Of a stretch of 64,000 bases of DNA, positions 10,593 to 62,269 are shown in pieces; position 1 is the first letter of the stretch; every line of letters starts with the position of its first letter. The DNA is from Flavihumibacter petaseus NBRC 106054. Its GTDB lineage: Bacteria > Bacteroidota > Bacteroidia > Chitinophagales > Chitinophagaceae. Below the pieces are notes generated by a model. The model worked only from the letters and a program-made list of their open reading frames with translations. It ran no database searches and had not been told where the DNA came from. The position numbers and the translations under genes were made by a program. Where the stretch lies: contig NZ_BBWV01000003.1 of the NCBI RefSeq assembly GCF_000974785.1, positions 682,001-746,000 of the forward strand, written 5' to 3'.

Positions 10593-10628
10593 CAACTAAA
10601 CTCATAAACAGATAAACAACTAAACATA
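10591..10628. repeat. Intergenic AAC/TAAAC repeat
   Basis: The gap between the permease and the first dehydrogenase consists of AACAACTAAACTCATAAAC-like short units. The same motif family recurs at 24178-24205, 40378-40413 and, inverted, 40489-40514. Confidence 0.5.
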
Positions 10629-10630
10629 CG

Positions 10631-11395: not shown

Positions 11396-11442
11396 TCGCT
11401 CTGATATTATAGCAAGGCATAAACCAACAGAAATTTTTTATC

Positions 11443-12300
11443 ATGAAACTGATCCGATTCGGCGAACCCGGCAAAGAAAAACCCGGTGTTCACATTGACG
11501 GCAAAAACTTTGATGTATCCGGGTTTATCCAGGATTACAATGAACAGTTCTTTGAAGAAGGCGGACTCGAAAATCTCGCCCGCATGCTGGTGAAGTACGG
11601 CAGTGATCTTCCTGTGATCCCCAACGGCGCCCGCCTGGGTAGTCCTGTTGCACGCCCCTCCAAGATCGTGTGCATCGGGCTCAACTATGCGCTCCATGCC
11701 AAAGAAACCAACGCAAAAACGCCGTCTGAACCGGTGATCTTTCTGAAATCCACCACGGCCCTCATTGGACCCAATGACCAGGTAACGATCCCGAAAGATT
11801 CTGTGAAGACCGACTGGGAAGTCGAACTCGCCATCGTGATCGGTAAGAAAGCTTCCTATGTGGAAGAAGCTGAGGCGTTGCAATATGTTGCCGGTTATAC
11901 CCTGCACAATGATATCAGTGAAAGGGAATACCAGCTGGAAAGAAACGGTACCTGGGACAAAGGAAAAGGCTGCGATACGTTCGCCCCGATCGGTCCATGG
12001 CTCGTTACGCCGGATGAAATTCCTGATATCCACCAACTGCGTTTGTGGCTCACCGTGAATGGTGAAAAGATGCAGGATGGTAACACGAACGATTTCATCT
12101 TCAACATCCCGCACGTGATCGCTTATACGAGCCGTTTCATGACCCTGCTTCCCGGTGATATCATTTCTACCGGAACACCTGCCGGTGTTGCGTTGGGCAT
12201 GGCTACGCCGCGCTACCTGAAACCCGGTGATGAAATGGAACTCGGCATCGATCACCTCGGATCTTCCAAACAAACCTGTATCGCTTATGCGGCGCGTTGA
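11443..12300 (+). CDS. FAH-family hydrolase, probable 2,4-diketo-3-deoxy-L-fuconate hydrolase
   Basis: 285 residues of the fumarylacetoacetate hydrolase family. The conserved core is visible: CIGLNYALHAKETN, EPVIFLKSTTALIGPND, DWEVELAIVIGKKA with the metal-binding acidic residues, GYTLHNDISEREYQ, and the C-terminal IISTGTPAGVALGM. In the oxidative L-fucose or L-rhamnose pathway such an enzyme cleaves the diketo acid to pyruvate and L-lactate. The N-terminal domain (about 60 residues) is short, as in the acylpyruvase branch. It ends overlapping the lactonase gene by 14 bases, a sign of translational coupling. Confidence 0.87.
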   Translation: MKLIRFGEPGKEKPGVHIDGKNFDVSGFIQDYNEQFFEEGGLENLARMLVKYGSDLPVIPNGARLGSPVARPSKIVCIGLNYALHAKETNAKTPSEPVIFLKSTTALIGPNDQVTIPKDSVKTDWEVELAIVIGKKASYVEEAEALQYVAGYTLHNDISEREYQLERNGTWDKGKGCDTFAPIGPWLVTPDEIPDIHQLRLWLTVNGEKMQDGNTNDFIFNIPHVIAYTSRFMTLLPGDIISTGTPAGVALGMATPRYLKPGDEMELGIDHLGSSKQTCIAYAAR

Positions 12301-13108
12301 TGCCCATAATCATTTCTGGCAGTACGATCCCGTACGCGATGCCTGGATCGATGATTCGATGCAGGTTATCCGGCGAAACTTTTTCCCGGACGACCTTGCA
12401 CCCCTGCTCGAAGCCAATGGCTTTGAAGGCTGCGTAGCCGTGCAGGCGGATCAGTCCGATACAGAAACGAAATTTCTGCTGGACCTCGCCGCGTCGGCGC
12501 CCTTTGTAAAAGGCGTTGTGGGCTGGACGGATCTCCGGGCCCCATTTGTGGAAGATCAACTGGACAAATACCGCGACCAGCCCTTACTCAAAGGGTTCCG
12601 CCATATCCTACAGGGAGAGCTTAATCGCTGCGGCATGCTGCAACCGGCATTCCTGAATGGTATCGCCGCTTTGGGAAAGAAGGGATATACTTATGATATC
12701 CTCATTTTTCCCGACCAGTTGCCGTTTGCCGCAACGCTCTGCGGCAAATTCAGCAACCAGGCTTTCATCATCGATCACGGCGCCAAGCCTTATATCCGGA
12801 AAGGGGAAATGGATCAATGGAAAAAAGACATGCAGGCCTTCCGTAAAATGGATCACGTATACTGCAAAGTATCGGGGCTCGCTACAGAGGCCGATTGGAC
12901 CAGCTGGACGCCACAGCAGATCCGTCCCTATATCGATACCCTCGTGGAAACATTTGGTATCAGCCGGCTGGTATTCGGATCGGACTGGCCCGTGAGCCTG
13001 CTGGCCGGAAGCTATGAAAGGACCGTTTCCCTGGTGGCAGATTGTTTCAGCGCATCCGAGCAGGAAGCCGTTTTCAGTACCAATGCCCGTCAATTTTATA
13101 AACTCTGA
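12287..13108 (+). CDS. Amidohydrolase, probable L-fucono-1,5-lactonase
   Basis: 273 residues from the ATG at 12287, which puts the metal-binding RVDAHNHFWQYD right at the N-terminus as in the family; an upstream in-frame start at 12227 lies inside the preceding gene and is rejected. Other motifs of the amidohydrolase-2 (lactonase) group are GFRHILQGE, FIIDHGAKP and the C-terminal LVFGSDWPVS with its catalytic Asp. It would hydrolyse L-fucono-1,5-lactone to L-fuconate. It overlaps the FAH gene by 14 bases and ends two bases before the next SDR, so the operon is tightly coupled here. Confidence 0.85.
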   Translation: MRRVDAHNHFWQYDPVRDAWIDDSMQVIRRNFFPDDLAPLLEANGFEGCVAVQADQSDTETKFLLDLAASAPFVKGVVGWTDLRAPFVEDQLDKYRDQPLLKGFRHILQGELNRCGMLQPAFLNGIAALGKKGYTYDILIFPDQLPFAATLCGKFSNQAFIIDHGAKPYIRKGEMDQWKKDMQAFRKMDHVYCKVSGLATEADWTSWTPQQIRPYIDTLVETFGISRLVFGSDWPVSLLAGSYERTVSLVADCFSASEQEAVFSTNARQFYKL

Positions 13109-13110
13109 AC

Positions 13111-13896
13111 ATGGATCTCCAATTAAAAGATAAAGTCATACTCGTAACCGGCGGTGCCAAGGGCATCGGCGAAGGCATCGTTCGTGTACTCGCGCAGGAA
13201 GGTGCGATCCCCGTGATCATTGGCAGGGATGTAAAAGATAATTCCAACCTGGTGAAGCAACTGGAAGCAAAAGGCCAGCAGGCTTTCCAGGTGGCGGCGG
13301 AACTGAACGATCCCGCCAATTGTGAAAAAGCAATCAAGGCTGTCGTAGGGCAATTCGGACGTATCGATGGTCTCGTGAACAATGCCGGCAAAAATGATGG
13401 TGTTGGCCTCGAGCATGGATCCTATACCGGTTTCATGGAATCATTGCACCGCAACCTGGTCCATTATTACCTGATGGCGCATTTTGCGTTACCGTATCTC
13501 AAGAAATCCAAAGGTCATATTGTGAACATCAGTTCCAAGACTGCAGAAACGGGACAGGGGAATACTTCCGCCTATGCAGCCAGCAATGGTGGCCGCAATG
13601 CGCTTACCCGCGAGTGGGCAGTTGAACTGTTGCCTTATGGCATCCGGGTGAACTGCATCATCGTAGCGGAATGCTGGACGCCGCAATATGAAACCTGGAT
13701 CCAGACCCTGCCGGATCCTGCTGCCAAACTGGCCAGCATCAATGCCAGGATACCTTTTGAAAACCGCATGACCACGGCAGAAGAGATTGCCAATACCACG
13801 GCCTTCCTGCTGTCGGAAAGGTCCAGCCACACAACGGGCCAGCTCATCCATGTGGATGGCGGCTACGTGCACCTCGATCCTATCATTCAAGACTAA
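13111..13896 (+). CDS. SDR oxidoreductase, probable L-fucose 1-dehydrogenase, with Asn at the catalytic Lys position
   Basis: 261 residues. The dinucleotide-binding loop is TGGAKGIGEG, NNAGKNDGVG follows near residue 91, ISSKTAETGQ supplies the Ser, and the catalytic Tyr is at about 155 in YAASNGGRN. By normal alignment the SDR YxxxK motif reads YAASN here (codon AAT), so the catalytic Lys is replaced by Asn. The protein ends in the usual TTGQLIHVDGGYVHLDP. As the second SDR of the operon, next to the lactonase that would use its product, it is the best candidate for oxidation of L-fucose to the lactone. The Asn may be a subgroup feature or require a different proton relay. Confidence 0.78.
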   Translation: MDLQLKDKVILVTGGAKGIGEGIVRVLAQEGAIPVIIGRDVKDNSNLVKQLEAKGQQAFQVAAELNDPANCEKAIKAVVGQFGRIDGLVNNAGKNDGVGLEHGSYTGFMESLHRNLVHYYLMAHFALPYLKKSKGHIVNISSKTAETGQGNTSAYAASNGGRNALTREWAVELLPYGIRVNCIIVAECWTPQYETWIQTLPDPAAKLASINARIPFENRMTTAEEIANTTAFLLSERSSHTTGQLIHVDGGYVHLDPIIQD

Positions 13897-13900
13897 GTAC

Positions 13901-15538
13901 ATGTCCCAACCAACTATACAAATTCACCCCAACGACAACCTGCTGGTGGCCCTGCAAAATCTGAAGGCAGGAACTGTCATCACCTGGAACGGGAACGCCA
14001 TCACACTCAGGGATGACGTACCGGCAAAACATAAATTAACGATTACAGACCTCGCGCCCGGCGATCCCGTGCTTATGTACGGCGTTACTGTCGGCAAAGC
14101 GATCGTCAATATTCCGCAGGGCGGATTGATCACTACTGAAAATATCCGTCACGCTGCTGATCCCTTTGACTATCGCGGCAGCGACTATCACTGGACTGCT
14201 CCTGACGTATCGGCGTTTGCCAACCGCAGCTTCAATGGTTATCACCGCAGTGACGGCAGAGTGGGAACTGCCAATTACTGGCTGTTCATTCCCACCGTAT
14301 TCTGTGAGAACCGTAACCTCGATGTGATCAAGGAAGCATTGGTGAATGAACTGGGCTACGGGGTAACGGACCAGTATAAACGCTATACGCATCAGCTGGC
14401 GGATGCGATCCGCCAGGGAGACAGCCTGAGCACCATTTCCTTCCAGCCGGGCAAACCTAAACAGGACCGCCTGTTCAAACATGTGGATGGCATCAAATTC
14501 CTGAACCACGATGGTGGGTGTGGCGGGATCCGGCAGGATTCGGAGATCCTCGGCAAGCTGCTGGCGGCCTATGCCAATCATCCCAACGTGGGTGGCATTA
14601 CCGTGCTGAGTCTCGGTTGCCAGCACCTGCAGACCCGCGATTTCCTGGAAGAGCTGAAAACATTGAACCCGGCTTTCGACAAGCCGCTATACGTATTCGA
14701 GCAACAGGAATCAGAAAGCGAACCACAACTCATTACTTCGGCGATCCGCCAGACTTTTGAAGGATTGCAGGAGATCAATAAGCAGCAACGCGAGCCAGCT
14801 CCTTTATCAAAGTTGACCATCGGCGTGAAATGCGGTGGGAGCGATGGCTTCAGTGGTATATCGGCAAACCCTGCCGTGGGCTATTGTTCCGATCTGCTGG
14901 CAGCATTGGGCGGCACGGTACTGCTGGCGGAGTTTCCGGAACTCTGCGGTGCCGAACAGGACCTGATCGATCGTGCGGTGGATGAACCCACAGCCCGGAA
15001 ATTCATCCGGCTGATGAAAAGCTACGATGCGCTTGCGCACCAGGCGGGTTCGGGGTTCTTTATGAATCCGAGTCCCGGTAACATCCGCGACGGCCTCATT
15101 ACTGACGCCATCAAAAGCGCAGGTGCAGCCAAGAAAGGTGGCCATTCGCCTGTAACTGATGTTTTGGATTACACGGAACAGGCTTCCCGGCCCGGACTCA
15201 ACCTGGTGTGCACACCGGGCAATGATGTGGAGGCCACTACCGGCAAGGCCGCCGCAGGCGCTACTATTATCCTGTTTACAACCGGATTGGGTACGCCTAC
15301 CGGTAACCCGGTTTGTCCCACTGTCAAGATCAGCACCAATACGCCGCTTGCCCGCCGGATGCCGGACATTATCGATATCGATACGGGAGCCATTATCACG
15401 GGAGAGAAGACGATCCAGCAGATGGGAGAAGAAATCCTGGAATATTGTATTTCGGTAGCGAACGGGGAAGTGATACCGAAGGCGGTGCAGCTGAACCAGG
15501 ATGACTTTATTCCCTGGAAGAGAGGGGTGAGTTTGTAG
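13901..15538 (+). CDS. UxaA-family dehydratase, probable L-fuconate dehydratase
   Basis: 545 residues from the ATG at 13901 (MSQPTIQIHPNDNLL); the in-frame extension back to 13787 lies inside the preceding SDR and is rejected. The N-terminus (to about residue 90) is a SAF domain; the rest matches altronate/galactarate dehydratase: GTANYWLFIPTVFCENRN, HDGGCGGIRQD and GVKCGGSDGFSGISANPA contain the conserved Cys and Gly residues. UxaA enzymes dehydrate sugar acids using iron. In this operon the expected substrate is L-fuconate, giving 2-keto-3-deoxy-L-fuconate, instead of the enolase-type dehydratase used in Xanthomonas. It is the last gene of the operon. Confidence 0.87.
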   Translation: MSQPTIQIHPNDNLLVALQNLKAGTVITWNGNAITLRDDVPAKHKLTITDLAPGDPVLMYGVTVGKAIVNIPQGGLITTENIRHAADPFDYRGSDYHWTAPDVSAFANRSFNGYHRSDGRVGTANYWLFIPTVFCENRNLDVIKEALVNELGYGVTDQYKRYTHQLADAIRQGDSLSTISFQPGKPKQDRLFKHVDGIKFLNHDGGCGGIRQDSEILGKLLAAYANHPNVGGITVLSLGCQHLQTRDFLEELKTLNPAFDKPLYVFEQQESESEPQLITSAIRQTFEGLQEINKQQREPAPLSKLTIGVKCGGSDGFSGISANPAVGYCSDLLAALGGTVLLAEFPELCGAEQDLIDRAVDEPTARKFIRLMKSYDALAHQAGSGFFMNPSPGNIRDGLITDAIKSAGAAKKGGHSPVTDVLDYTEQASRPGLNLVCTPGNDVEATTGKAAAGATIILFTTGLGTPTGNPVCPTVKISTNTPLARRMPDIIDIDTGAIITGEKTIQQMGEEILEYCISVANGEVIPKAVQLNQDDFIPWKRGVSL

Positions 15539-27764: not shown

Positions 27765-30700
27765 TTGGGAAAACTACTGCTTATACCATTGCTGATCGTA
27801 CTCGCGACGGGACTTTCCCGGGCACAATCGACTATTGGCCCCGGCAAGTCGTCTCCCGCTTCCAACCTCCGCGAAAAATACCTTCCGGTTCATGCCGGGC
27901 TCACGGTAATCGACAGCTCCTCACTGATCCCCAACACGGTTCATATTCCGGGCATTCCGGCACACTGGTACACCGTCGACTGGCTGAATGGAACCGTTTA
28001 CTGGAAGCAGGTGCCCCCCATAGACTCTGTACTGGTTCGTTACCGTGTGCTGGGGAGCAGGCTGAATGCCAGCAGGCAGCGGCTCAATTTTGACAGTATT
28101 GCCAACAGCTACGCCAGCCAGCAGGAATTGCGGAAGGCTTATGGAGATCCCAATGCAGACAACGAATTTTTCAATTTTGGCAATATCACGTACAACGGCA
28201 GTTTCGGAAGAGGGATTTCCTTCGGCAATGCCCAGGATGCAGTGGTTACTTCCAACCTCAATCTCCAGATCAGCGGTTACCTTGCCGACAGTATTGAGAT
28301 CGCAGCTGCCATTACCGATAACAATATTCCCATTCAGCCTGACGGAACCACCCAACAGCTGAACGAGTTTGACCGGATCTTCCTGCAATTCAAAAAGAAC
28401 GGCTGGGCCCTGAGTCTCGGCGATATCGATCTGCGGCAGAACCGCAATTACTTCCTGAATTTCTATAAAAGGCTACAGGGTGCTTCTTTTGAAAATACAT
28501 CCACCATCGGAAGAAATATTACCAACAGTACGCTCTTCAGCGGATCGATTGCCAAGGGGAAATTCACGCGGAATGTATTTGATGGCATGGAGGGCAACCA
28601 GGGGCCGTACCGCCTTACCGGCGCCAATGATGAATTGTACTTCGTGGTGCTTGCCGGAACGGAACGGGTATTTATCGATGGTGAACTGATGCAACGGGGA
28701 GAAGACCGCGATTATACGATCAATTACAATACGGCTGAGATCACCTTCACGCCAAGGCGGATGATCACCAAAGACCGGCGCATCCAGGTGGAGTTTGAAT
28801 ATGCAGACAGGAACTACCTGAATACGAACCTGTACCTCGCCAATGAAACGAATTTTGGAAAAAGGTTTCGGTTGCGGATGGGTGTGTTTTCCAATAATGA
28901 CGCCAAAAACTCACCCATCAACCAAACGCTGGATCCTCAACAAAAACAGTTCCTGTCAGCAATCGGTGATAGTGTACAATATGCTTTCTACCCGGTGGCC
29001 CAGATCGATACGTTTTCTCCTTCCAAAATCCTCTATAAAAAAGTGGAGATTGAAAACAACGGGCTGAAAGATTCGATCTATATCTATTCTACCAATCCCG
29101 ACAGTGCACGGTATAATCTATCCTTCGTGGATGTAGGTGCGGGGAAGGGCAATTATGTGCCGGACCTCAATGCGGCGAATGGTAAAGTGTACAAATGGGT
29201 GGCGCCTGTCAACAATGTTCCGCAGGGGCAGTATGAAGCGGCAACTTTCCTGGTGACGCCCAAGCGCCAGCAGGTGCTGACGTTTGGCGGCGATTACCAG
29301 GTGGACAACCGAACCCTGATCAGTGCGGATGTGGGCATGAGCCGGTATGATATCAATACCTTTTCCACTAAAGGAAAAGGCAACGACCGTGGACTTGCCG
29401 GACGACTACAGCTGAAGCACGTGATCCCGATCAGCAGGGGCAGGCGTATCCAGGGTGACGGCTCCGTGGAATGGGTGGAACACAGTTTCAAGCCCCTGGA
29501 GCGTTTGCGCAATGTGGAGTTCACCCGTGACTGGGGATTGCCGCTGGTGGTGCAGCCTGCTGATGAAACGATGTTCAGCGCCGGCCTTGAGCTGGGGGAC
29601 GACAGGAACAACAAACTCCGGTACCAGCTGACCGGTTATAACCGGAGTGATGGCTTTTCGGGTATCCGTAACAGTTTGACCCAGTTGCAGGAAACGAAAG
29701 GCTGGCGGTTCAACAACCAGGTCAGCATGACAAGCTCAGAAAGCGGCACGGATAAGGGATACTTTTTCCGGCCCACGTTCGATATTTCCAAAACGTTGTC
29801 AGGACTGCAGAACTATACCCTCGGCGCCAGTTATTCGCTCGAGCAGAATATAGCCCGGTACAAACAAAGCGATACCATCACGCCTTACAGTTTCTCCTTC
29901 GATGTCCTCAAAGTATATCTGAACTCTGATGATAAGAAGCCGAACCGCTGGGGCGTCAGTTATTATACCCGGGCAGACCAGATGCCTGCCGGATCCAAAA
30001 TGGAACGGACGGACCGAAGCCAGAACATCAGCCTGATGACGGAGTTGCTGAAAAGCCAGGCGCATCAGCTTCGCCTGAACACCACCTACAGGGTGCTGAA
30101 GGTAGATCACAAAACAGTCGCCAATACCGCGTCAGACAAAAGCCTGCTGGGCCGGATGGAATACGCCGTTAATGAATGGAACGGGATGCTGAGTGGTAAC
30201 GTATTATATGAATTGGGGGCAGGGCAGGAGCAGAAGCGCGATTATGCATTCCTCGAAGTGCCTGCCGGCCAGGGGGAGTATGCGTGGTTTGATTATAACG
30301 GGGATGGTGTGCAGCAACTGAATGAATTCGAGATCGCACAATTCTCTGATCAGGCAAAGTTCATCCGCATATTCACTCCTACCAATGACTTTGTGAAAGC
30401 CAGTTACAATAGCTTCAATTATAGCCTGGCGCTGAATCCGAGGAATGCGATCGAACTGGCGACCGCCAGCGGCCTGAAGAAATTCATAGCCAGGATCAGC
30501 CTGCAGAGCAGCCTGCAGTTATCGCGCAAACAGATTTCTGATGGCATCAGCCAGTTCAATCCTTTCAGCAAGAATTTCGATGACAGTACCCTGATCACCC
30601 TGGCGAATATCTGGGTGAACAGCCTTGCGTTTAACCGGTTCAGTTCGAAGTGGGGATTTGACATCAGTCAGTCCCGCAATCGGGGGAAAATATTACTCAC

Positions 30701-31250
30701 CTATGGGCTGGAAAGCCGCGCCCTGGATGACTTTACCTTTCGGACCCGATGGAATCTTACGCGCAAAATCACGTTCGAGCTTACCGGTAAAACCAACATG
30801 AATGAACTGGAAACGGCGAATGCGCAGTTTGATAACCGCAATTACCGGATTGACGGAAAATCACTGGAGCCGAAGCTGAGTTTTACCCAGGGGGCGAATT
30901 TCCGCGTGAGTGGCGGCTATCGCTATGGCCGCAAGGAAAACCGCGAGGGCGCAGGGGAAATCTACCTGTCCAATGCCTTTAATACAGACATCAAATACAA
31001 TATTCTGCAAAGTACTTCCGTTCAGGCCAGGTTCACGTATAACACTATCAAGTATCCTTATGCGACGAACAGTACGGTCAGTTATGTGATGCTGGATGGC
31101 CTTCAACCGGGTCGAAACCTGTTGTGGACGCTGGATCTTACCAAGAGGCTTGGCAGGAATCTTGAAATGAATATACAATATGAAGGAAGAAAACCTGGTG
31201 ATACCAGGATCATACACATTGGCCGTGCCGGATTGCGTGCGATCCTTTAA
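27765..31250 (+). CDS. Large exported envelope protein with SprA-like repeats
   Basis: 1161 residues beginning with a signal peptide (LLLIPLLIVLATGLSRAQS). The only start in position is TTG at 27765; no in-frame ATG or GTG lies upstream before the frame loses signal character. Around residues 195-345 it has modules resembling SprA of the type IX secretion/gliding apparatus: NRNYFLNFYKRLQGASFE, then GPYRLTGAND and FIDGELMQRGEDRDYTIN. The remainder is long, beta-rich and Tyr/Asn-rich, ending GRAGLRAIL, consistent with an outer-membrane barrel. It is half the length of true SprA, so this is a relative, not SprA itself. Role unknown. Confidence 0.75.
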   Translation: MGKLLLIPLLIVLATGLSRAQSTIGPGKSSPASNLREKYLPVHAGLTVIDSSSLIPNTVHIPGIPAHWYTVDWLNGTVYWKQVPPIDSVLVRYRVLGSRLNASRQRLNFDSIANSYASQQELRKAYGDPNADNEFFNFGNITYNGSFGRGISFGNAQDAVVTSNLNLQISGYLADSIEIAAAITDNNIPIQPDGTTQQLNEFDRIFLQFKKNGWALSLGDIDLRQNRNYFLNFYKRLQGASFENTSTIGRNITNSTLFSGSIAKGKFTRNVFDGMEGNQGPYRLTGANDELYFVVLAGTERVFIDGELMQRGEDRDYTINYNTAEITFTPRRMITKDRRIQVEFEYADRNYLNTNLYLANETNFGKRFRLRMGVFSNNDAKNSPINQTLDPQQKQFLSAIGDSVQYAFYPVAQIDTFSPSKILYKKVEIENNGLKDSIYIYSTNPDSARYNLSFVDVGAGKGNYVPDLNAANGKVYKWVAPVNNVPQGQYEAATFLVTPKRQQVLTFGGDYQVDNRTLISADVGMSRYDINTFSTKGKGNDRGLAGRLQLKHVIPISRGRRIQGDGSVEWVEHSFKPLERLRNVEFTRDWGLPLVVQPADETMFSAGLELGDDRNNKLRYQLTGYNRSDGFSGIRNSLTQLQETKGWRFNNQVSMTSSESGTDKGYFFRPTFDISKTLSGLQNYTLGASYSLEQNIARYKQSDTITPYSFSFDVLKVYLNSDDKKPNRWGVSYYTRADQMPAGSKMERTDRSQNISLMTELLKSQAHQLRLNTTYRVLKVDHKTVANTASDKSLLGRMEYAVNEWNGMLSGNVLYELGAGQEQKRDYAFLEVPAGQGEYAWFDYNGDGVQQLNEFEIAQFSDQAKFIRIFTPTNDFVKASYNSFNYSLALNPRNAIELATASGLKKFIARISLQSSLQLSRKQISDGISQFNPFSKNFDDSTLITLANIWVNSLAFNRFSSKWGFDISQSRNRGKILLTYGLESRALDDFTFRTRWNLTRKITFELTGKTNMNELETANAQFDNRNYRIDGKSLEPKLSFTQGANFRVSGGYRYGRKENREGAGEIYLSNAFNTDIKYNILQSTSVQARFTYNTIKYPYATNSTVSYVMLDGLQPGRNLLWTLDLTKRLGRNLEMNIQYEGRKPGDTRIIHIGRAGLRAIL

Positions 31251-31850: not shown

Positions 31851-31872
31851 TAAACATCATTTGATGATAGCG

Positions 31873-31902
31873 ATTCCGGCCATAGTGCCGGAATTTTTTT
31901 TT
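31873..31902 (+). terminator. Rho-independent terminator after the small barrel gene
   Basis: ATTCCGGC (31873-31880) and GCCGGAAT (31887-31894) form a perfect 8-bp stem followed by a run of eight further T bases. Confidence 0.88.
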
Positions 31903-31994
31903 GGTGGTGAGCGGGTAATTTAAAAACAGCAATTGGTAAATCCGGAAAAGATGGTCGTGTGTATATGCCTGTATTTTTATTAAAATACGATTGT

Positions 31995-34532
31995 ATGCCC
32001 GGGCACAACGCTAAAGTCATTTTACTTGTATTGTTATTGTCACTAACAACTGCGCTTGCTTTTTCTCAGCAATTGCCTTCACGAATGGGCCAGGCCGGCA
32101 CCCTTTCATTTGATGATGGCTGGCTGTTCAGGCGTTACGGGCTGCAGGCAGACGGTTTCAGTGTAGCTGAGGAAGCGAATATATCAGCCGTTGATTTTAA
32201 GGATGCCGGCTGGCAACAACTCAAACTGCCGCACGATTGGGCGATTACCGGCCCCTTCAGAATTGATCTGGCCGGAGAGACCGGAAAACTACCGTGGAAA
32301 GGAATCGGCTGGTACCGTAAGCATTTTGCGCTTCCTGCAGGGGATGCGGGGAAACGGATATTTATAGACTTTGACGGGGCAATGGCTTATGCGGAGGTTT
32401 GGCTGAACGGGCACTATATCGGCAAATGGCCTTATGGTTACAGCTCCTTCCGGATGGACTTGACACCGTACATCAAAGCTGGCCAGGAAAATGTGATTGC
32501 GGTCAGGCTGGATACAGAAAAATGGGATTCCAGGTGGTATCCCGGCGCGGGCATTTACCGGCATGTCTGGCTCGTGAAGACAGACCCGGTGCATGTAGGG
32601 CACTGGGGAACGACCATTACGACGCCGGAAGTGTCTGCGGCTGCTGCTGCTATCAAATTGAATACGGTGGTGGTTAATCATTCCGGTAAACCCGTTAGCG
32701 CTGCCATCCGCTCAACGCTTTTTGAGGTGGATGCCCATAACAGGATCATACGGGAAGCGGGATCGATGCCTGTTACCAGCGTTTTTGTCGGTGCTTACGA
32801 TTCAGTTGTATCCGTCAGCCGGACCAGTATGAAGCATCCGAAAATATGGGACCTGGAGCATCCCAACCGGTATATCGCAAAAACCAGTATCGAAGTAAAA
32901 GGCAAAATAACGGACACCTATTACACTGTTTTCGGGATCAGGACGATCAGGGTAACAGCGGACAGCGGTGTATTGCTAAACGGAAGACGGGTACAGATCC
33001 AGGGCACCTGTAATCACCACGATCTCGGGGCATTGGGCGCTGCGATGAATAAAAGCGCCCTGCGCAGGCAGTTGTCCATTCTGAAAGAGATGGGGTGCAA
33101 TGCGTTGAGAACATCCCATAATCCGCCTGCGCCGGAATTGCTGGAACTTGCAGACGAGATGGGGTTCCTGGTGTGGGATGAAGCGTTTGATGCCTGGAAA
33201 ACCGGCAAGAAGAAAAATGACTACAATAAGATTTTCACGGAGTGGCATGAGAAGGACCTGGCAGCTATGGTACGCCGGGATAAAAATCATCCATCCGTAT
33301 TTATCTGGTCAATTGGCAATGAAGTGATGGATCAGCAGGATGTAGCGCTCACCCGCATGCTGGTTGATATTGTACATAAGGAAGACCCCACAAGACCGGT
33401 ATCCAATGGCTATAATGATCCGGACGGAGGCCGGTCATCAGGCGCCGCTCAGGCATTGGATATTATGGGAGTCAATTATTTTTTCAGTCAACAACCTGTT
33501 TGGGATAAAGATCCCCGTTATGCGCAGAAACCTACGATTGGAAGTGAAACTTCATCCTGTCTCAGTACAAGAGGCGAATATTTTTTCGGATCACCCTACA
33601 GGAACTGGCAGATCAGTTCCTACGATGTGGCTAAACCAGGCTGGGGATGTATTCCAGATACCCAGTTCAATATATTGCAGCGGATGCCACGGCTGCTGGG
33701 AGAGTTTGTGTGGACGGGCTTTGATTACCTGGGAGAACCCACGCCCTATGGTTCTGATGAGACCAACCTGCTGAATTTCAGAAATGATCCCGCAAAGCGC
33801 GATTCGCTGGAGAAAAAGCTGGCCGAAATGAAGGCGAAGAATCCGCCTTCCCGCAGTAGTTATTTTGGCATCGTCGACTTGTGTGGGTTTCCCAAAGACC
33901 GGTATTACCTGTACCAGTCGGTATGGCGGCCTGAATTGCCGATGGCTCACCTGTTGCCGCACTGGAACTGGCCGGGCAGGATTGATTCTATTGTGCCGGT
34001 TCATTTGTATACATCCGGTGATGAAGCCGAGCTATTTCTTAACGGTAAAAGTCTCGGAAGAAAAAAGAAAATGGCGGGAGATTACAGGCTGATCTGGGAT
34101 AGCGTGGTGTACCAGCCGGGAAAGCTGACAGCGATAGCTTATAAGCAGGGCAGGCGGTGGGCGACAGACAGTGTGCAAACAACAGGAACAATGTCAGGGT
34201 TGAACCTGACGGCAAATCAGCAAACGGTCATCAGTAACGGAGAAGAGTTGCTGTTTGTCACTGCGACGGTGGTGGATGAAAACGCCATGCTGGTACCTGG
34301 TTCCAGCCCGCCTGTTCAGTTTGACGTGGAAGGGCCGGGTGACATAGTTGCTACCGATAACGGTGATCCGACAAGTTTTGAATCCTTTCAAAGCCACACG
34401 AAGGCAGCGTTTAACGGGATGGTATTGGTGATTGTAAAGCCAAAACCAGGGCTGTCTGGTAAGCTGCAGCTACATGCCCGAAGCGCCGGATTGCAGCCAG
34501 CTTCTGTGTCAGTGGAAATAAAGCAGCGGTAG
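31995..34532 (+). CDS. GH2-family exported beta-galactosidase-like enzyme
   Basis: 845 residues from the ATG at 31995, which gives a proper signal peptide (VILLVLLLSLTTALAFSQ); a start at 31959 is in frame but less likely. GH2 order is intact: sugar-binding domain (WYRKHFALPAGDAG, AEVWLNGHYIGKWPYGYSSF), immunoglobulin-like domain, then TIM barrel with RTSHNPPAPELLELADEMG and acid/base Glu in FIWSIGNE; nucleophile Glu is in LLGEFVWTGFDYLGEP. A C-terminal beta domain follows. Family members hydrolyse beta-galactosides or beta-glucuronides. First of three glycosidases in a row on this strand. Confidence 0.9.
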   Translation: MPGHNAKVILLVLLLSLTTALAFSQQLPSRMGQAGTLSFDDGWLFRRYGLQADGFSVAEEANISAVDFKDAGWQQLKLPHDWAITGPFRIDLAGETGKLPWKGIGWYRKHFALPAGDAGKRIFIDFDGAMAYAEVWLNGHYIGKWPYGYSSFRMDLTPYIKAGQENVIAVRLDTEKWDSRWYPGAGIYRHVWLVKTDPVHVGHWGTTITTPEVSAAAAAIKLNTVVVNHSGKPVSAAIRSTLFEVDAHNRIIREAGSMPVTSVFVGAYDSVVSVSRTSMKHPKIWDLEHPNRYIAKTSIEVKGKITDTYYTVFGIRTIRVTADSGVLLNGRRVQIQGTCNHHDLGALGAAMNKSALRRQLSILKEMGCNALRTSHNPPAPELLELADEMGFLVWDEAFDAWKTGKKKNDYNKIFTEWHEKDLAAMVRRDKNHPSVFIWSIGNEVMDQQDVALTRMLVDIVHKEDPTRPVSNGYNDPDGGRSSGAAQALDIMGVNYFFSQQPVWDKDPRYAQKPTIGSETSSCLSTRGEYFFGSPYRNWQISSYDVAKPGWGCIPDTQFNILQRMPRLLGEFVWTGFDYLGEPTPYGSDETNLLNFRNDPAKRDSLEKKLAEMKAKNPPSRSSYFGIVDLCGFPKDRYYLYQSVWRPELPMAHLLPHWNWPGRIDSIVPVHLYTSGDEAELFLNGKSLGRKKKMAGDYRLIWDSVVYQPGKLTAIAYKQGRRWATDSVQTTGTMSGLNLTANQQTVISNGEELLFVTATVVDENAMLVPGSSPPVQFDVEGPGDIVATDNGDPTSFESFQSHTKAAFNGMVLVIVKPKPGLSGKLQLHARSAGLQPASVSVEIKQR

Positions 34533-34639: not shown

Positions 34640-37600
34640 ATGAAAATTATCTTTTTCTTTTTGTCTGTGGTTCCGGCTTTGGCGCTGTGCCAGGAACAAC
34701 AATGTACCATCGATCTCCGCCGGGTGAATGAACCAGCAAAACCGGCGGTGATCAACATGACAGGTAAAGACCCTTCGGGACAGACCTTATCGGTGAACAG
34801 CAGCTATTTTGAACGGGATGGCAAACCCTGGATGCCCCTGATGGGAGAGTTGCATTATAACAGGGTGTTACCTGCTTTCTGGAACAGTGAGATCGCGAAG
34901 ATGAAAAGCGGCGGCTTGTCAGTTGTGGCTACCTATGTTTTCTGGAACGAACATGAACAGCATCCTGGTACCTGGGACTGGCGGGGCAATCGTGATCTGC
35001 GGCAATTCCTGGAGACCTGTCAAAGTAATGGCATGTATGTCTGGTTAAGGATAGGTCCCTGGAGCCATGGCGAGCAATTGCATGGAGGATTTCCGGAGTG
35101 GATTGAACAAATGAAAGGGAAGAGGACCAATGATCCCGCCTACCTGGAAGCAGCATCAAAACTATTTAAGCAGATCGGTAGTGTTACTGCGGGAATGTAT
35201 TTTAAGGATGGCGGCCCGGTAATCGGAATACAACTGGAAAATGAATATGCTTCCGGAAAGCAGGGACATATTTCAACGTTAAAAAAAATGGCTCAGGCCG
35301 CTGGTATTGAACCCGTGTATTGGTCGGTAACGGCCAATACTGTATTCGATGATGAGGCTATGGAAGTAATTCCGCTACAGGGTGCCTATCCCTACAGGGG
35401 CTGGGAGGCTGGTGGCGGGAAAGCAACCAAAGATTTCCTGTATGGCAATGACCAGTGGATCATGGACGACGCACTCGGCAAAGTGTTCTATGATGTACAC
35501 AAATTTCCGAAAGGCATGTGTGAGCAGGGATGCGGCAGCCAGATGACCTTTGCCAACCGTTTCGTGGTTGACCCGCATATCGTCGAGGCCCACTTGCAGA
35601 ATCAGGTTGGCAGGGGGATGAACCTGGTTGGTTATTATATGTTCCATGGGGGAACACAAACGCCGGGATTGAAGGAGCCAGGCCTTCCGGAGAGTTATGA
35701 TTTCCAGGCGCCCATCGGGGAATACAATGAATTGCGGCCTTCTTACCGGTATCTCAGGATACTGCACCAGTTCATCAATGACTTCGGCAGCGATCTTGCC
35801 CAAATGCAGGTGGTTGAACCGGAATATCCGGTAAAAGATCCATTGGATACCATACAACTGCGCTATTGCACCCGTGTAAAAGACAATTCGGGTTTTGTTT
35901 TTCTGAACAATGCCCAGGTACGGGTGGATATGCCGGATAAGAAGGTTCACCTTCAGGTTAAGCTTCCGGGCGAGACCATCGATTTTCCTTCATTTTGGTT
36001 GAAAGGAAAGACGAGTCCGGTGCTGCCATTCAACCTGTCAGTGAATGGCGTGCGGATCAAATATGTGACCGCGCAGTTGATGTGCAGAGTGGCCAATGGA
36101 AGTGATACGTTACTTTTTTTTCAACGATTGCCGGGCACGGAACCGATAGCTGCATTTGATGCCGCAACCCTGAAAAGCATTGATCAGCCGGCAAAATTCT
36201 TTAAGCAAAAAAATGGAGTGACCGCAATTTCTGTCGGCCAAAGAAAAAGTATTTCGGTGACAGCGGGCAATGGCAGTAGGGTGATCATGATATTCCTCAG
36301 CAGGCAGGAGGCGGAAAATGCTGTGAAAATACAGGCTGGTGAAAAAGAAGCGATGATCATTTCTACTGCGGATGTGAACTTCGATGATGGCCAGATCAGG
36401 TTGAGCCAGTTAGGCAAGCCATCTTTTCAGTTTACGATTTATCCTTCCGGCATTAAATATTTTTCTCCAACGGCAATAACCAGCAAGGGCACGATTTCGG
36501 ATGTGGTTGTAATTAAAGGTGAGGCCGTTAAGTTGCCTGTACAATTGAAGGAATCACCCTCGGGAATGATGGAACTTATTGTGCCGGAAAATATTCCTGC
36601 AGCATTGGAGGATGTTAAGGTGAACATTGATTATCTCGGCGGGGCTGCTAAGCTATTAAATGATAAAGGTGTGGTAGTAGGTGACCACCTTTTTAACGGA
36701 ACTACCTGGGTGGTGGGAATCAACAAGTTCTTGGGGAAAGGAAATTTGCGTATTGCAACAGAACCATGGAATGATAACATCACCGGAGTTGCTCCTGCTA
36801 TCGTCCAACGCGTGAAGGCGGCAAAACCTGGTGTAGTGAAAGTAACGATTGTGCCTGAGTACAAGGTGCAGGTGGACATCATTCCTGATTCCCTTCCCGC
36901 AGCCGTTTCTGCCGCGTCATTTGGAGCAATTCCAAATGATGATTTCAACGACAGGTCAGGGCTTCAAAATGCAGTGGATTACTGCAGAAAAAACAGGATC
37001 AGGCGATTATTGATTCCGCCTGGAACTTACAAGATTTCAGATGGCCGCGCAATACAGTTGATGCAGGATGTCATGAGCCACAAAATGGGACGCAATTCCC
37101 AGGATATCATTTATACACCTTATTACGACTATGTCAGGGGCATCAGGTTTGATCGTATTAACGACCTGGAGGTAATCGCAGACGGCGCCGTGTTTATGGT
37201 TGAAGGCTGGATGGAGCCCGTATCCCTTGAGAATTGTAAAGGAGTAACCATCCGGGGACTGACCATTGACTATGCAACACCGCCTCACAGCGAAGGATTG
37301 GTGACAGGGGCAACAGAAATGTATTTTGATATCAGGTTTAACGATGCATTTTTTGTGAAAGACAGCCTGGTGATGAACCGGATCATGTTTTGGGATAAGA
37401 CCAGGAACCGGCTGGCCGGAGAAACGATTTATTTTCCTGACAGCAGCCGAATGATTGGTACCGACCTGTTGCGGGTCTGGGCAAAGCACCCGCCTGGCAT
37501 TACCGGGATGATGGCATTGGTAAATCACACCTTCCATTTCCGTCCGGCAGTACTTCTCCTCGAATCATCAGCAACTACACTAGACCGGGTAACCATCCAT

Positions 37601-38560
37601 GCGCAGCCGGGAATGGGTATTGTCGGGCACCGTTGCACCGGCATCCTGTTGAATGGATTACGTATTGTACCACGCCCGGGAAAGTTCCAGTCCACCAACA
37701 CGGACGCTACCCACTTTACTGCCTGTAAAGGGACGATACGGATGGATGGCTGTATGTTCGAAGGGCATGGTGACGATGCTACCAACGTGCATGGCTATTA
37801 CCAGGTCGTCACCAAAAAACTGGACAGTAACCTGTACCGGATACAAATGGAAAAAGCCTGGGGAACGCATTCTATGACTTTAGATTATCCGGACACAGGT
37901 GATACCCTGGAACTGGTGTCGAAAAACAATCTCAAGACAACGGAAAAGTATATAGTGCGGCAGGTGGACACTTCCCGGGTGCAGTGGCACGCAGACATTC
38001 GACTTGACAGACCATTGCCGGACGACCATCAAAATTATTTTCTGATTGATGTGACGCGGTTACCCCGTCTAGAATTCGTCAATTCCACTGTCAACAGTCA
38101 CCTCGCCCGGGCCGTACTGGTGAAAACAAGGAATGTTCTGATTGAAAATTGCACATTCCGTGAAAGCACCGGTACTGCCATCCATATAGGAGCCGAAGGT
38201 GACTGGCGGGAGGGACCGGGTTCTTCCAATATTATCATTCGAAATAACCGGATATTTCGATGTGGCACTGGTGATGGGACCAATGACCAGGCTACTGCAA
38301 TAGCCATCAATGTGAAAGCATCGGATATTTCGGTGCCCGGAGTACACCAGCAGATTCGTATCGAGAACAACCTGATAGAAGGCGAACAGTCGCAGTATGG
38401 CATTTCAGTTTCAGGAGCAAAGAATGTCATGATCTGTAACAATACATTCTATGGATGCATTCATCCCTTGCAGGTAAAATATTCCTCCGGGGTTACATTT
38501 CTTAACAATAAAGAAGGCGGGACACTTTCCAAAATAATTCCGGACAAAAAATATGACTAA
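34640..38560 (+). CDS. Two-domain glycosidase: GH35-like beta-galactosidase fused to a GH110-like beta-helix
   Basis: 1306 residues from the ATG at 34640 with signal peptide (IIFFFLSVVPALALCQ); a TTG upstream at 34586 is rejected. Residues about 30-390 are a GH35 barrel: HYNRVLPAFWNSEIAKMK, RIGPWSHGEQLHGGFPEW, acid/base Glu in IQLENEY (about 202) and a likely nucleophile Glu in GMCEQGCGS (about 295). A beta-sandwich linker follows. From about 755, ASFGAIPNDDFNDRSGLQNA starts a right-handed parallel beta-helix; GDDATNVHG (about 1044) is the hallmark of GH110 alpha-1,3-galactosidases. One polypeptide could cut both alpha- and beta-galactosyl bonds. Fusion is continuous in the DNA, with no stop or shift at the junction. 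Confidence 0.85.
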   Translation: MKIIFFFLSVVPALALCQEQQCTIDLRRVNEPAKPAVINMTGKDPSGQTLSVNSSYFERDGKPWMPLMGELHYNRVLPAFWNSEIAKMKSGGLSVVATYVFWNEHEQHPGTWDWRGNRDLRQFLETCQSNGMYVWLRIGPWSHGEQLHGGFPEWIEQMKGKRTNDPAYLEAASKLFKQIGSVTAGMYFKDGGPVIGIQLENEYASGKQGHISTLKKMAQAAGIEPVYWSVTANTVFDDEAMEVIPLQGAYPYRGWEAGGGKATKDFLYGNDQWIMDDALGKVFYDVHKFPKGMCEQGCGSQMTFANRFVVDPHIVEAHLQNQVGRGMNLVGYYMFHGGTQTPGLKEPGLPESYDFQAPIGEYNELRPSYRYLRILHQFINDFGSDLAQMQVVEPEYPVKDPLDTIQLRYCTRVKDNSGFVFLNNAQVRVDMPDKKVHLQVKLPGETIDFPSFWLKGKTSPVLPFNLSVNGVRIKYVTAQLMCRVANGSDTLLFFQRLPGTEPIAAFDAATLKSIDQPAKFFKQKNGVTAISVGQRKSISVTAGNGSRVIMIFLSRQEAENAVKIQAGEKEAMIISTADVNFDDGQIRLSQLGKPSFQFTIYPSGIKYFSPTAITSKGTISDVVVIKGEAVKLPVQLKESPSGMMELIVPENIPAALEDVKVNIDYLGGAAKLLNDKGVVVGDHLFNGTTWVVGINKFLGKGNLRIATEPWNDNITGVAPAIVQRVKAAKPGVVKVTIVPEYKVQVDIIPDSLPAAVSAASFGAIPNDDFNDRSGLQNAVDYCRKNRIRRLLIPPGTYKISDGRAIQLMQDVMSHKMGRNSQDIIYTPYYDYVRGIRFDRINDLEVIADGAVFMVEGWMEPVSLENCKGVTIRGLTIDYATPPHSEGLVTGATEMYFDIRFNDAFFVKDSLVMNRIMFWDKTRNRLAGETIYFPDSSRMIGTDLLRVWAKHPPGITGMMALVNHTFHFRPAVLLLESSATTLDRVTIHAQPGMGIVGHRCTGILLNGLRIVPRPGKFQSTNTDATHFTACKGTIRMDGCMFEGHGDDATNVHGYYQVVTKKLDSNLYRIQMEKAWGTHSMTLDYPDTGDTLELVSKNNLKTTEKYIVRQVDTSRVQWHADIRLDRPLPDDHQNYFLIDVTRLPRLEFVNSTVNSHLARAVLVKTRNVLIENCTFRESTGTAIHIGAEGDWREGPGSSNIIIRNNRIFRCGTGDGTNDQATAIAINVKASDISVPGVHQQIRIENNLIEGEQSQYGISVSGAKNVMICNNTFYGCIHPLQVKYSSGVTFLNNKEGGTLSKIIPDKKYD

Positions 38561-40376
38561 AGCAAGGCTTGAAATTAATATAATGCGGTTGCTGGCACTG
38601 TTAATATTGATGCTGCCGGTATTTACCATGGCACAGGAAGTGGTCAGGGCAGATGCATTTGGGGTTCGATCCAACAGCTTCGAAAATGCAAGCGGCGCGA
38701 TCAGGAAAGCAATTGATTTTTGCAGGGGTAAATCAAATGCGACACTGTTGTTGCCGGGAGGGAGAATAGATGTGTGGCCGGAAGGATCCGTTCGGAAAGA
38801 GCTCTATATCTCGAATGCTACCGAGAACGATACTTTATCGAAGGAGAAGAATATTGCCTTTGACCTGGCGGATATGCATGACCTGACCATCGATGGGAAC
38901 AACACCCTCGTGGTGCTGCATGGTAAGATGGTATCCTTTGTACTGACGGGTTGCCGGAATGTGCAGCTTAAGAATATCCGTTTCGATTATGAACGGCCTA
39001 CGATGTCGGAAATGACGCTGGTAAAGGTTTCACCCAACGCAATTGAGGCAGCAATCCATCCTGATACCTGGTTTTACATCGATGAAAGCCAGCGCATCAA
39101 CTGGTACGGCGAGGGATGGAAAAGCAGGTCCTATCATACTATCCTGCTGGATACCGGTAGCGGCAGGATGCACTACAGCAGCTTTCAGCCGTTCGCAGGA
39201 AGCCGCGCGGTGAGGAGTGGCCCCCTCGCAGTACGGTTTGAGGGTGATTTTTCCCGCGGAAATTTTGCAGCCGGAAATGTGCTGACGACCCGCGATCCAT
39301 ACAGAGACAATGTTGGCGCATTTATCAACAGGTGCGCTAATGTCCGCCTGGAGGGTATCACCATGAATTATATGCATGGATTAGGGATTGTCTCGCAATT
39401 TTCAGAAGATATTTCGTTGGTGAAAGTGCGTGTGGCGCCACCTGAAGGATCTGGTCGTGTAATCAGCGCTTTCGCGGATTGTTTTCATTTTTCCGGATGC
39501 AGGGGACGTATCCTGCTGGACAGTTGCCTCACCTCCGGCTCACACGATGACCCGGTTAATGTACATGGCACCCATCTGAAGATCATTTCAATTAGCAAGG
39601 GTAACGAGGTGACTGTTCGGTTCATGCATCATCAGACCTATGGCTTCGAAGCATATTTTGCGGGGGATAGTATTGCGCTGACAGATCCGGCGACCCTACT
39701 GGCTAAAGGCTTTGCTGTGGTGAAAACCGCTAAACTGGTCAATCGCCGCGAAATGGTTTTGACGCTGGATAAAGACCTCGCCGGAATGATGGTTGGCGAT
39801 TGCCTGGAAAATCTCACGTGGACACCGGAACTGACTGTAAGGAATTCCCGTTTCGAAAAAACAAATACCCGCGGCCTGCTGGTTACCACCCGTAGAAAGG
39901 TAGTGATAGAAAATAATGTCTTTTACCGGACAGGAATGCATGCCATCCTTATTGCTGATGATGCCAGCAGCTGGTATGAATCGGGACCGGTGCAGGATGT
40001 AATCATCCGCAACAACCTTTTTGAAGGATGTGGTTATAATTCTGATCCGCAGCACACAGTTATCGCCATTTCCCCTGAAAATCATAAGCTGGTAGCAGAC
40101 CGGTTTGTTCACCGCAATATCACCATAACGGGCAACCGGTTCAATTTGGTTGATGTCAGTGTCATCACCGCCAGGAGTGTTGACGGGTTGCAATTCACCG
40201 GTAATATTATTTCCGGAGATGGGAACACGACAGGAAAGCCATCGTTCAGCCTGACGGCCTGTAAAAAAGTTGAAATCATTGGCAATGATTTCAGGGTAGG
40301 GTGGCGCCCGGAAATTCAGCTCGAAAATATGAAGGCGGATCAGTTGAAAGCTGATCTGCAGGTGGTGAAGAAGTAA
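38553..40376 (+). CDS. GH110-family alpha-1,3-galactosidase-like beta-helix protein
   Basis: 607 residues. The ATG at 38553 overlaps the stop of the upstream gene, suggesting coupling; an internal ATG at 38583 gives a tighter signal peptide (LLALLILMLPVFTMAQE) and is also possible. GH110 features: ADAFGVRSNSFENASGAI at the helix start, SGSHDDPVNVHGTHLK (about residue 330) with the catalytic Asp pair, and TYGFEAYFAGDSI. It is a sister of the C-terminal half of the preceding fusion. Enzymes of this family remove terminal alpha-1,3-galactose, as in blood-group B or carrageenan-type chains; substrate here is not proven. Confidence 0.85.
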   Translation: MTKARLEINIMRLLALLILMLPVFTMAQEVVRADAFGVRSNSFENASGAIRKAIDFCRGKSNATLLLPGGRIDVWPEGSVRKELYISNATENDTLSKEKNIAFDLADMHDLTIDGNNTLVVLHGKMVSFVLTGCRNVQLKNIRFDYERPTMSEMTLVKVSPNAIEAAIHPDTWFYIDESQRINWYGEGWKSRSYHTILLDTGSGRMHYSSFQPFAGSRAVRSGPLAVRFEGDFSRGNFAAGNVLTTRDPYRDNVGAFINRCANVRLEGITMNYMHGLGIVSQFSEDISLVKVRVAPPEGSGRVISAFADCFHFSGCRGRILLDSCLTSGSHDDPVNVHGTHLKIISISKGNEVTVRFMHHQTYGFEAYFAGDSIALTDPATLLAKGFAVVKTAKLVNRREMVLTLDKDLAGMMVGDCLENLTWTPELTVRNSRFEKTNTRGLLVTTRRKVVIENNVFYRTGMHAILIADDASSWYESGPVQDVIIRNNLFEGCGYNSDPQHTVIAISPENHKLVADRFVHRNITITGNRFNLVDVSVITARSVDGLQFTGNIISGDGNTTGKPSFSLTACKKVEIIGNDFRVGWRPEIQLENMKADQLKADLQVVKK

Positions 40377-40518: not shown

Positions 40519-40544
40519 AAGCCGTCTGCTCATGCAGACGGCTT
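40519..40544 (-). terminator. Terminator of the coiled-coil protein gene
   Basis: AAGCCGTCTGC (40519-40529) and GCAGACGGCTT (40534-40544) form a perfect 11-bp stem with TTTTTT following on the minus strand, 22 bases after the stop. Confidence 0.85.
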
Positions 40545-61309: not shown

Positions 61310-62269
61310 TTATTTACCAAGATATTGTTGAAAGAATGCCTGAATTGTTTCGGCCGAGGGCTGGGGAAATGGTCTCACCACCCTGAAGCCGACAGAAGAG
61401 GCTTCTGTGAGCCACCAGCGGCTTTTCGGAATCTGGGGGTCACGGCGATTCCAGGTGGGATCAGATTTTACCCTTGCTGCAGAACGCAATTTTACCGGCT
61501 GGTCGTCATATCCGCCGCCGCGAACAACTTTGGGGTACCGGGAAGCACTATACGCTGCCAGTGGGTCTTTACTACCCTCGGCATACCCTTCGTAGGCATT
61601 GTCTGTATATGCGTCCAGGGTCCATTCGCTGACATTTCCCAGCATATCGTAAAGTCCCCATGGGTTTGGTTTCTTTTCTCCCGATTTGTGAAATTTATTG
61701 CCACTGTTGCCGTCGAACCAGGCATAGTCACCCAGTTTGTCCGGTTGGTCACCAAAGAAATATGCTGAAGATGAACCTGCGCGGCAGGCATATTCCCATT
61801 CTGCTTCTGAAGGCAGGCGATAAAAAACGCCAGTTTTTTCATACAGCCAGCGGCAATACATCAAGGCTGAATACTGGGAAAGGCTGTTCACAGGAAAGCC
61901 GCCTTCCTTACCCATTCCCTTGCTGAAATCAATATACTGGGGGCTGGGTCGGGTTATGGCGTCAGCCGTATTGTTCTGGGAAAAAGCGTCGTCTTTAAAG
62001 AAAACATCGAAGGCATCGCGGCTGGTTTCGAATTCAGCCATCCAGAAAGTACTGATTTCGTGCTCACGGGCCGGAGATTCGTCGGGTTGACGATTCTTTT
62101 CTTTGTCTGAACTTCCCAGGCGGAACTTCCCGGCAGGTATGGGTACCATTTTAAATTTCAGGGATGAACCAGGCACCGTCTGTTCATAGGGTTTGAAGTC
62201 TGCCTGCTGACCTTGCGCACTCATATTCATCACAAGACCGGCAAACACCAGCGTACCGAAAAATTTCAT
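61310..62269 (-). CDS. Exported formylglycine-generating-enzyme-like (SUMF1) protein
   Basis: 319 residues with a signal peptide (FAGLVMNMSAQGQQ). The FGE-sulfatase domain is visible as FKMVPIPAGKFRLGSS, YRLPSEAEWEYACRAG and DMLGNVSEWTLDAY, RGGGYDD and GFRVVRPFP. Proteins of this type include true formylglycine generators as well as gliding-motility GldJ/GldK-like lipoproteins and oxidases; the catalytic Cys pair of the true enzyme is not obvious, so sulfatase maturation is not claimed. Operon with the Gfo/Idh/MocA oxidoreductase. Confidence 0.85.
   Translation of the reverse strand: MKFFGTLVFAGLVMNMSAQGQQADFKPYEQTVPGSSLKFKMVPIPAGKFRLGSSDKEKNRQPDESPAREHEISTFWMAEFETSRDAFDVFFKDDAFSQNNTADAITRPSPQYIDFSKGMGKEGGFPVNSLSQYSALMYCRWLYEKTGVFYRLPSEAEWEYACRAGSSSAYFFGDQPDKLGDYAWFDGNSGNKFHKSGEKKPNPWGLYDMLGNVSEWTLDAYTDNAYEGYAEGSKDPLAAYSASRYPKVVRGGGYDDQPVKLRSAARVKSDPTWNRRDPQIPKSRWWLTEASSVGFRVVRPFPQPSAETIQAFFQQYLGK

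Follow-up and report, generated by a model that had tools for sequence, protein, structure and literature searches.

A GH35–GH110-like fusion protein in Flavihumibacter petaseus, a candidate two-site exo-glycosidase

Does a single 1306-codon gene of Flavihumibacter petaseus NBRC 106054 encode two glycosidases in one chain, and if so, which glycan would such a protein trim? The gene lies in a 64,000-nt stretch of DNA, positions 682001-746000 of contig NZ_BBWV01000003.1 (hereafter the window, whose numbering is used for all coordinates). A preliminary description had proposed that it fuses a barrel of glycoside hydrolase (GH) family 35 to a beta-helix of family GH110, with a GH2 gene before it and a second GH110 gene after it. 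Judged from its sequence, the fusion gene is genuine and apparently recent, a GH35 gene and a distant GH110-type beta-helix gene having been joined in frame. Our best explanation of the whole, to which we give about an even chance from the sequence and the predicted structures, is that this recent fusion would act as a two-site exo-glycosidase on glycan ends that carry alpha-linked over beta-linked galactose. The features of the fusion gene are listed below with the evidence for each.

34640..38560, plus strand: GH35–GH110-like fusion protein, 1306 aa (open-frame listing, Pfam, PDB-sequence matches)
34814..35770, plus strand: GH35 catalytic barrel, aa 59-377 (PF01301 at 2e-55, AlphaFold2 model, VIA Z)
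35237..35239, plus strand: E200, acid/base Glu in QLENEY (invariant in 26/26 rows; aligned to QVENEY of GLB1)
35522..35524, plus strand: E295, nucleophile Glu in CEQG (invariant in 26/26 rows; aligned to the Glu of SEF in GLB1)
36875..36901, plus strand: junction, about aa 746-754, where GH35 homology ends and a short linker follows with no second signal peptide (alignments and DNA)
36902..38557, plus strand: GH110-like right-handed beta-helix half, about aa 755-1306 (PDB sequence match, AlphaFold2 model, Foldseek, VIA)
37703..37705, plus strand: D1022, equivalent of the base D321 of PdGH110B (hidden Markov model (HMM) alignment; 49/49 rows)
37772..37777, plus strand: D1045-D1046, equivalents of the acid D344 and the base D345 of PdGH110B (HMM alignment; 49/49 rows)

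The uninterrupted frame claimed in the preliminary description is there: positions 34640-38560 on the plus strand read as one frame without an internal stop, inside an open frame that spans 1330 aa in all. The two motifs on which that description relied also fall where a bifunctional protein would have them, QLENEY starting at aa 198 and GDDATNVHG at aa 1044. The N-terminus looks by eye like a signal peptide. In the alignments the GH35 homologues run to about aa 745, and those of the mature beta-helix set in at about aa 755. The joining of the two genes would thus have cost the first its stop codon and the second its signal peptide, and the simplest route would be that the genes were neighbours and lost the DNA between them, or that they came together through a rearrangement.

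The N-terminal half is a GH35-like barrel, as proposed, with Pfam, the predicted fold and the invariance of its acid/base Glu all in agreement. PF01301 scores 189.1 bits, well above its cut-off of 27. The two halves were folded separately with AlphaFold2, using alignments built from the window and the fetched loci only, and the model of the GH35 half (26-row alignment) has a predicted local distance difference test score (pLDDT) of 89.8. It superimposes on the Aspergillus oryzae GH35 enzyme 4iug with a VIA Z of 38.2 and a root-mean-square deviation of 4.3 over 648 residues. E200 aligns to the Glu of QVENEY in human GLB1 and E295 to that of SEF, two residues that we take to be the acid/base and the nucleophile of that enzyme, respectively. 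Beta-galactosidases are not the only solved relatives of this half; an exo-beta-glucosaminidase and a beta-1,2-glucosyltransferase are also among them.

In the C-terminal half Pfam recognises a generic beta-helix only. The best solved GH110 by sequence is 7jw4 (8.7e-35, best stretch aa 937-1293), and the predicted fold is more telling. The model (49-row alignment) has a pLDDT of 94.3; GH110 enzymes fill its 15 best Foldseek rows, as they do the 10 VIA-align rows with Z between 35.2 and 40.6, which align 516-533 of 559 residues. The next fold, RbmB, follows at a Z of 29.1 over 319 residues. Sequence and predicted fold thus both uphold a C-terminal beta-helix of GH110 type, and the domain search and structure prediction that had been proposed as a check place this half within the GH110-like helices. 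Identity to the solved GH110s is only 16-23%, which marks a distant branch, and Pfam misses the GLAA-B barrels although the GH110 fold aligns from end to end. On sequence and model grounds, we consider the helix half to belong to a divergent GH110 branch and alpha-1,3-galactosidase activity to be likely for it.

Residues of the helix half were compared with those of PdGH110B through an HMM alignment. PMC7939477 assigns the acid role in PdGH110B to D344 and the base role to D321 and/or D345, places N348, R453, W486 and E488 among the residues of the -1 subsite, which it ties to exo-alpha-galactosidase activity, and expects the +1-subsite Arg451 throughout the family. The helix half keeps the equivalents of N348, R453, W486 and E488. 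Across the 49-row branch alignment the three Asp residues, N348 and R453 are found in every row, and W486 and E488 in 48/49, the remaining row having a gap. At the R451 position, whose placement depends on the alignment, the fusion and 37/49 rows have Leu and 5/49 have Arg. The E480 position, at which an enzyme that accepts a 6-sulfate differs from one that does not according to the passages seen of PMC12549532, holds Ile. N85 and R265 of PdGH110B align to Ser and His, and an Arg that is invariant in 49/49 rows, two residues from the R265 position, may be the true equivalent of R265.

From these assignments a mechanism can be proposed. The protein would be exported, given its signal-peptide-like start. 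With D1045 as acid and D1022/D1046 as bases, the helix half would remove a terminal alpha-galactose with inversion; the beta-galactose thus exposed would then be taken off by the GH35 half with retention, via E200 and E295. The neighbouring genes would contribute two further enzymes, a canonical GH110 and another beta-galactosidase, of family GH2. The earlier proposal that one polypeptide cuts two consecutive galactose linkages is plausible in outline; it is less secure in its details, as the helix half is divergent (Leu for R451) and the GH35 half has kin of mixed activity.

A search for the same fusion in other genomes, also proposed earlier, was run and found none in the genomes sampled. 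The whole protein served as query against 59 near relatives (E cut-off 1e-3), 394 genomes of the family (1e-40), and, at 1e-60, 17 and 14 genomes of two genera in which related halves occur and 395 genomes of the class. These draws overlap, so that their sizes are not additive, and a weaker fusion could escape. In the family and class scans at most two candidates per genome were scored among the matches listed, G000 excepted. An alignment of GH110-like proteins was used as query against 395 genomes of the phylum (1e-40) and 15 of the genus (1e-20). Among the matches listed in all sampled genomes, no second frame has both halves; besides the window's own, the alignment query returned frames of 603-656 aa in the phylum and 611-649 aa in the genus. 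In contig scans the whole protein as query yielded no confirmed relative, and the GH110-like alignment query yielded 47 named loci, in none of which (0/47) a GH35 match lies inside the GH110-like frame. Contig ends cut three of these loci on the GH35 side (L067, L074, L086) and two on the other (L090, L096). A clear GH35 gene adjoins the GH110-like gene only in L061, from Maribellus luteus, and L069 has a weak GH35-like match there.

The closest relatives of both halves are separate genes. In the genome G002 they are 53% and 61% identical to the two halves and are on different contigs. In G387 they are 52% and 57% identical and share a contig, with about 6.5 kb between them, in a locus with SusC/SusD-like genes (by eye), and in G804 they are 54% and 56% identical and about 8 kb apart, again on a single contig. 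Maribellus luteus has the order GH35, GH110-like, GH101-like, GH110, GH123-like (some of these names were given by eye), with about 100 bp between the GH35 gene and the GH110-like gene downstream of it. In a tree of the branch the fused helix half falls in a group of five rows supported at 100/100, and the other four, from Maribellus and three Chitinophagaceae, are unfused. The branch as a whole spans Bacteroidota, Verrucomicrobiota, Acidobacteriota, Bacillota and one metagenome-assembled genome (MAG) labelled as an archaeon, and we found no characterised member of it.

That archaeon-labelled contig (L084, a Candidatus Sigynarchaeum MAG) carries a branch member that is 39% identical, with its match at 834-2420; gene transfer or a binning error could account for the label. 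Two other long frames, L063 and L077, were considered as further fusions of this type and rejected, as both lack a GH35 match; the N-terminal part of L077 has the look of immunoglobulin-type repeats (by eye). In the Verrucomicrobia L063 (3468-7145) and L064 (5879-9596), the GH110-like gene directly follows a coding stretch of about 677 aa. The stretch has no Pfam or NCBIfam match in either locus and no PDB-sequence match for the L063 copy, has relatives in L073, L076, L089 and L104, and may be an unnamed glycosidase, with the look of an (alpha/alpha)6-barrel (by eye). L064, a close relative with 94.5% identity over the upstream gene, has two genes where L063 has one long frame, the N-terminal part of which corresponds to the first of them. 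With a coverage of 1.17 on its record, L063 may owe this frame to a sequencing error. Our search of the open-access literature, in the titles, abstract openings and passages returned, found no description of a GH35–GH110 protein; in their retrieved portions PMC12997984 and PMC8999789 merely list the families, and papers returned for Flavihumibacter with glycoside hydrolases hold nothing on such a fusion.

Several of our observations weigh against the two-site reading. On the GH35 side, the NCBIfam model NF051902 reaches 11.8 bits against a cut-off of 500; it describes one GH35 subfamily and not the whole family, so the miss means only that this half is not of that subfamily. The best partial NCBIfam match of the fusion is to an exo-beta-glucosaminidase (72 bits, cut-off 1500). 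On the helix side, the Pfam GLAA-B barrels I and II have no match at E up to 1 in any of the four branch members scanned, and together with the replaced +1 Arg this means that the substrate may differ. As for the history of the fusion, in G387 and G804 the two genes follow each other in the opposite order to the fusion, with the GH110-like gene first, and the GH35 of Maribellus, the sole case in fusion order, is 29% identical and of another subgroup; these two findings lower our confidence in the two-site reading. Finally, among the genomes sampled the fusion occurs in a single assembled sequence, which makes an assembly error a rival explanation, and a single case means that conservation gives no support for the use of the fusion.

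The most serious rival, which we regard as rather unlikely though possible, is that the fusion is real but its helix half removes an alpha-linked cap other than that removed by the known GH110 alpha-1,3-galactosidases, before the GH35 half acts. The Leu that replaces the +1 Arg in most of the branch speaks for it, as do the low identity to the solved GH110s and the barrels that Pfam fails to recognise; so does the canonical-looking second GH110 found nearby here and in 3/47 loci (L061, L075, L097), which would be redundant if it cut the same bond. Against this, the -1 subsite of three Asp, Asn, Arg, Trp and Glu is kept, the set that the passages seen of PMC7939477 connect with exo-alpha-galactosidase activity. 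The +1 Arg is also not universal among known GH110s, since AgaBb (8yk3) has another residue at this position (by eye), and for L063 of the same branch a GLAA-B_II match was obtained, though a weak one below cut-off (E 0.001). A bolder proposal, which we hold as a doubtful speculation, is that an uncharacterised, cross-phylum GH110 branch with an altered +1 subsite has a different alpha-linked target, and that the fusion would be a two-step exo-machine that takes the cap off a chain and immediately cuts away the next sugar, and whose GH35 half points to the natural substrate of the branch.

That the fusion is an artefact of assembly or sequencing, with two genes in the cell, is highly improbable in our judgement. 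Its occurrence in one genome only among those sampled fits such an error, as does the precedent of L063, whose low-coverage contig joins genes that are separate in L064; but a base error cannot delete the missing signal peptide and the intergenic DNA, and the fusion sits on a 954-kb contig of a genome estimated to be 99.74% complete. It is also improbable, to a lesser degree, that the fusion is a decaying by-product with one half dead and that the intact GH2 and GH110 alongside do the work. A single case and neighbours of overlapping function that could take over are what such decay would leave, and in the tree the fused half has an end branch of 0.68 against a median of 0.36, though the unfused L097 has 0.78. 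The gene, however, has no stop or frameshift, the catalytic residues of both halves are kept, and the model confidence is high for both. Functional fusion with two sites on alpha- over beta-galactose ends remains our preferred reading.

The genes around the fusion agree with the preliminary description, with a GH2 gene before it, identified through NCBIfam as GalB, and a second GH110 after it, identified through PDB and Pfam matches. The elements of this three-gene cluster are:

31872..31895, plus strand: terminator-like hairpin upstream of the cluster (hairpin scan; weak)
31959..34532, plus strand: GH2 beta-galactosidase, GalB type, first gene of the cluster (NF041463 1013.3 bits, cut-off 900; Pfam GH2 domains)
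38583..40376, plus strand: stand-alone GH110 with DDPVNVHG, 597 aa from the 38583 start (8yk3 at 1.9e-86; GLAA-B barrels I and II)
40519..40544, minus strand: terminator-like hairpin of 11 pairs in the gap that separates the cluster from the convergent gene after it (its stem is the longest among the 13 found; weak as a class)

Both GLAA-B barrels of the stand-alone GH110 (PF23763 and PF23764) score above the Pfam cut-off. If it began at the listed ATG at 38553 the gene would overlap the stop of the fusion; the in-frame ATG at 38583, which lies 22 bases after that stop and opens what looks by eye like a signal peptide, is the more probable start. The hairpins at both ends of the cluster weakly suggest that the three genes may form one unit. 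The region has 13 terminator-like hairpins against 8.9 expected in shuffles, and a promoter scan of it gave 14 sites against 12.7 expected.

The cluster appears to be a newcomer at this site. It is absent from the same site in 11/11 congeners examined (tblastn, E up to 1e-6), namely those with a fetched copy of the anchor gene at 27765-31250 and its downstream DNA, in which the same flanking genes follow. The remaining three are G002, which has no anchor match, and G006 and G010, whose anchor is cut by contig ends. An outer-membrane-protein gene at 31302 is present in 9/11 of the congeners. The cluster is probably an insertion, judging from these comparisons, and its repeated loss in congeners is a less simple alternative. 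No foreign base composition was seen in it, the G+C content being 0.47-0.51 per 2-kb step, as in the flanks. The product of the anchor gene is 1161 aa long, matches nothing in Pfam at E 0.1 and has by eye the look of a surface or outer-membrane protein; relatives of it occur in 14/15 genus genomes, the window's own included.

Which glycan might this cluster serve? The preliminary description had offered carrageenan-type, blood-group-B-like and alpha-Gal chains. Carrageenan is disfavoured and was set aside: the genome has 16 sulfatase matches, 14 of them over cut-off, and none lies within the window. An FGE-sulfatase-type gene at 61310-62269 leaves this unchanged. A blood-group-B-like or fucosylated alpha-Gal target fares somewhat better, as the window holds genes for L-fucose:

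78-1997: GH95-family gene (72 bits, cut-off 27; its 778-aa frame begins upstream of the window)
9297-15538: compact L-fucose catabolic cluster of FucP, L-fucose dehydrogenase, FAA hydrolase, and fuconolactonase-type and altronate-dehydratase-type proteins

In NCBIfam the FucP permease scores 375 bits (cut-off 280) and the L-fucose dehydrogenase 415 bits (cut-off 300), and the FAA-hydrolase and fuconolactonase-type proteins are below cut-off. What tells against the fucosylated target is distance, since these genes lie 16-32 kb upstream of the GH2–fusion–GH110 cluster and those between look unrelated (by eye). The most likely target is a glycan that lacks sulfate, ends in alpha-linked over beta-linked galactose and may carry fucose. 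The loci scanned in relatives carry varying sets of GH97, GH101-like, GH123-like, GH51-type, GH43, GH127, GH89, GH95 and GH29 genes, a combination in keeping with glycoprotein or arabinogalactan-type glycans that points to neither alone. A short GH101-like gene of 466-470 aa (L054:9513-10913, L061:9642-11054) recurs near GH110-type genes; its L061 copy weakly matches the NCBIfam model of endo-alpha-N-acetylgalactosaminidase, which at 1962 positions is much longer than this gene, and the GH101-like gene of the window's own genome is on another contig.

If both sites work, the protein would be a natural two-in-one enzyme for glycan trimming and a clue to the substrate of its GH110 branch, and the fusion would be an example of the enzyme genes of one pathway merging into one gene. 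According to the portions seen of PMC12002104, the conversion of group B blood gives a practical interest to enzymes that take off alpha-1,3-galactose.

The closest kin of the fused helix half, in Niabella drilacis (L097), Maribellus luteus (L061), a Chitinophagaceae MAG (L059) and Flavihumibacter sp. CACIAM 22H1 (L060), are separate genes of 559-639 aa, unlike the fused half. The GH35 half aligns with the fungal GH35 beta-galactosidases 4iug and 5ifp over 648 residues at Z 37-38, yet is only 17% identical to them, and the fungal enzymes have no GH110 partner. Among the blood-group-B GH110s, PpaGal of Pedobacter panaciterrae (9i4f) and AgaBb of Bifidobacterium bifidum (8yk3), treated in PMC12002104, are matched by the stand-alone GH110 at 6.2e-67 and 1.9e-86, respectively. 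They have the same fold as the fused half, yet are 16-20% identical to it, and the fused half is joined to a GH35. The lambda-carrageenan cascade, as outlined in the passages seen of PMC12549532, alternates GH110 with a GH2 beta-galactosidase and needs sulfatases. With GH110A, GH110B and GH2 of Pseudoalteromonas distincta, as far as the seen passages of PMC12549532 and PMC7939477 describe them, our cluster shares the GH110 fold, the catalytic Asp residues and, in the reading proposed here, the alternating removal of alpha- and beta-galactose; that cascade, however, uses separate proteins, employs GH2 and not GH35, and requires sulfatases, whereas here one polypeptide carries both halves in a window without a sulfatase. 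Both parts of the fusion belong to known families or to branches near them, and the fusion is a local variation on known enzymes, not a new kind of system.

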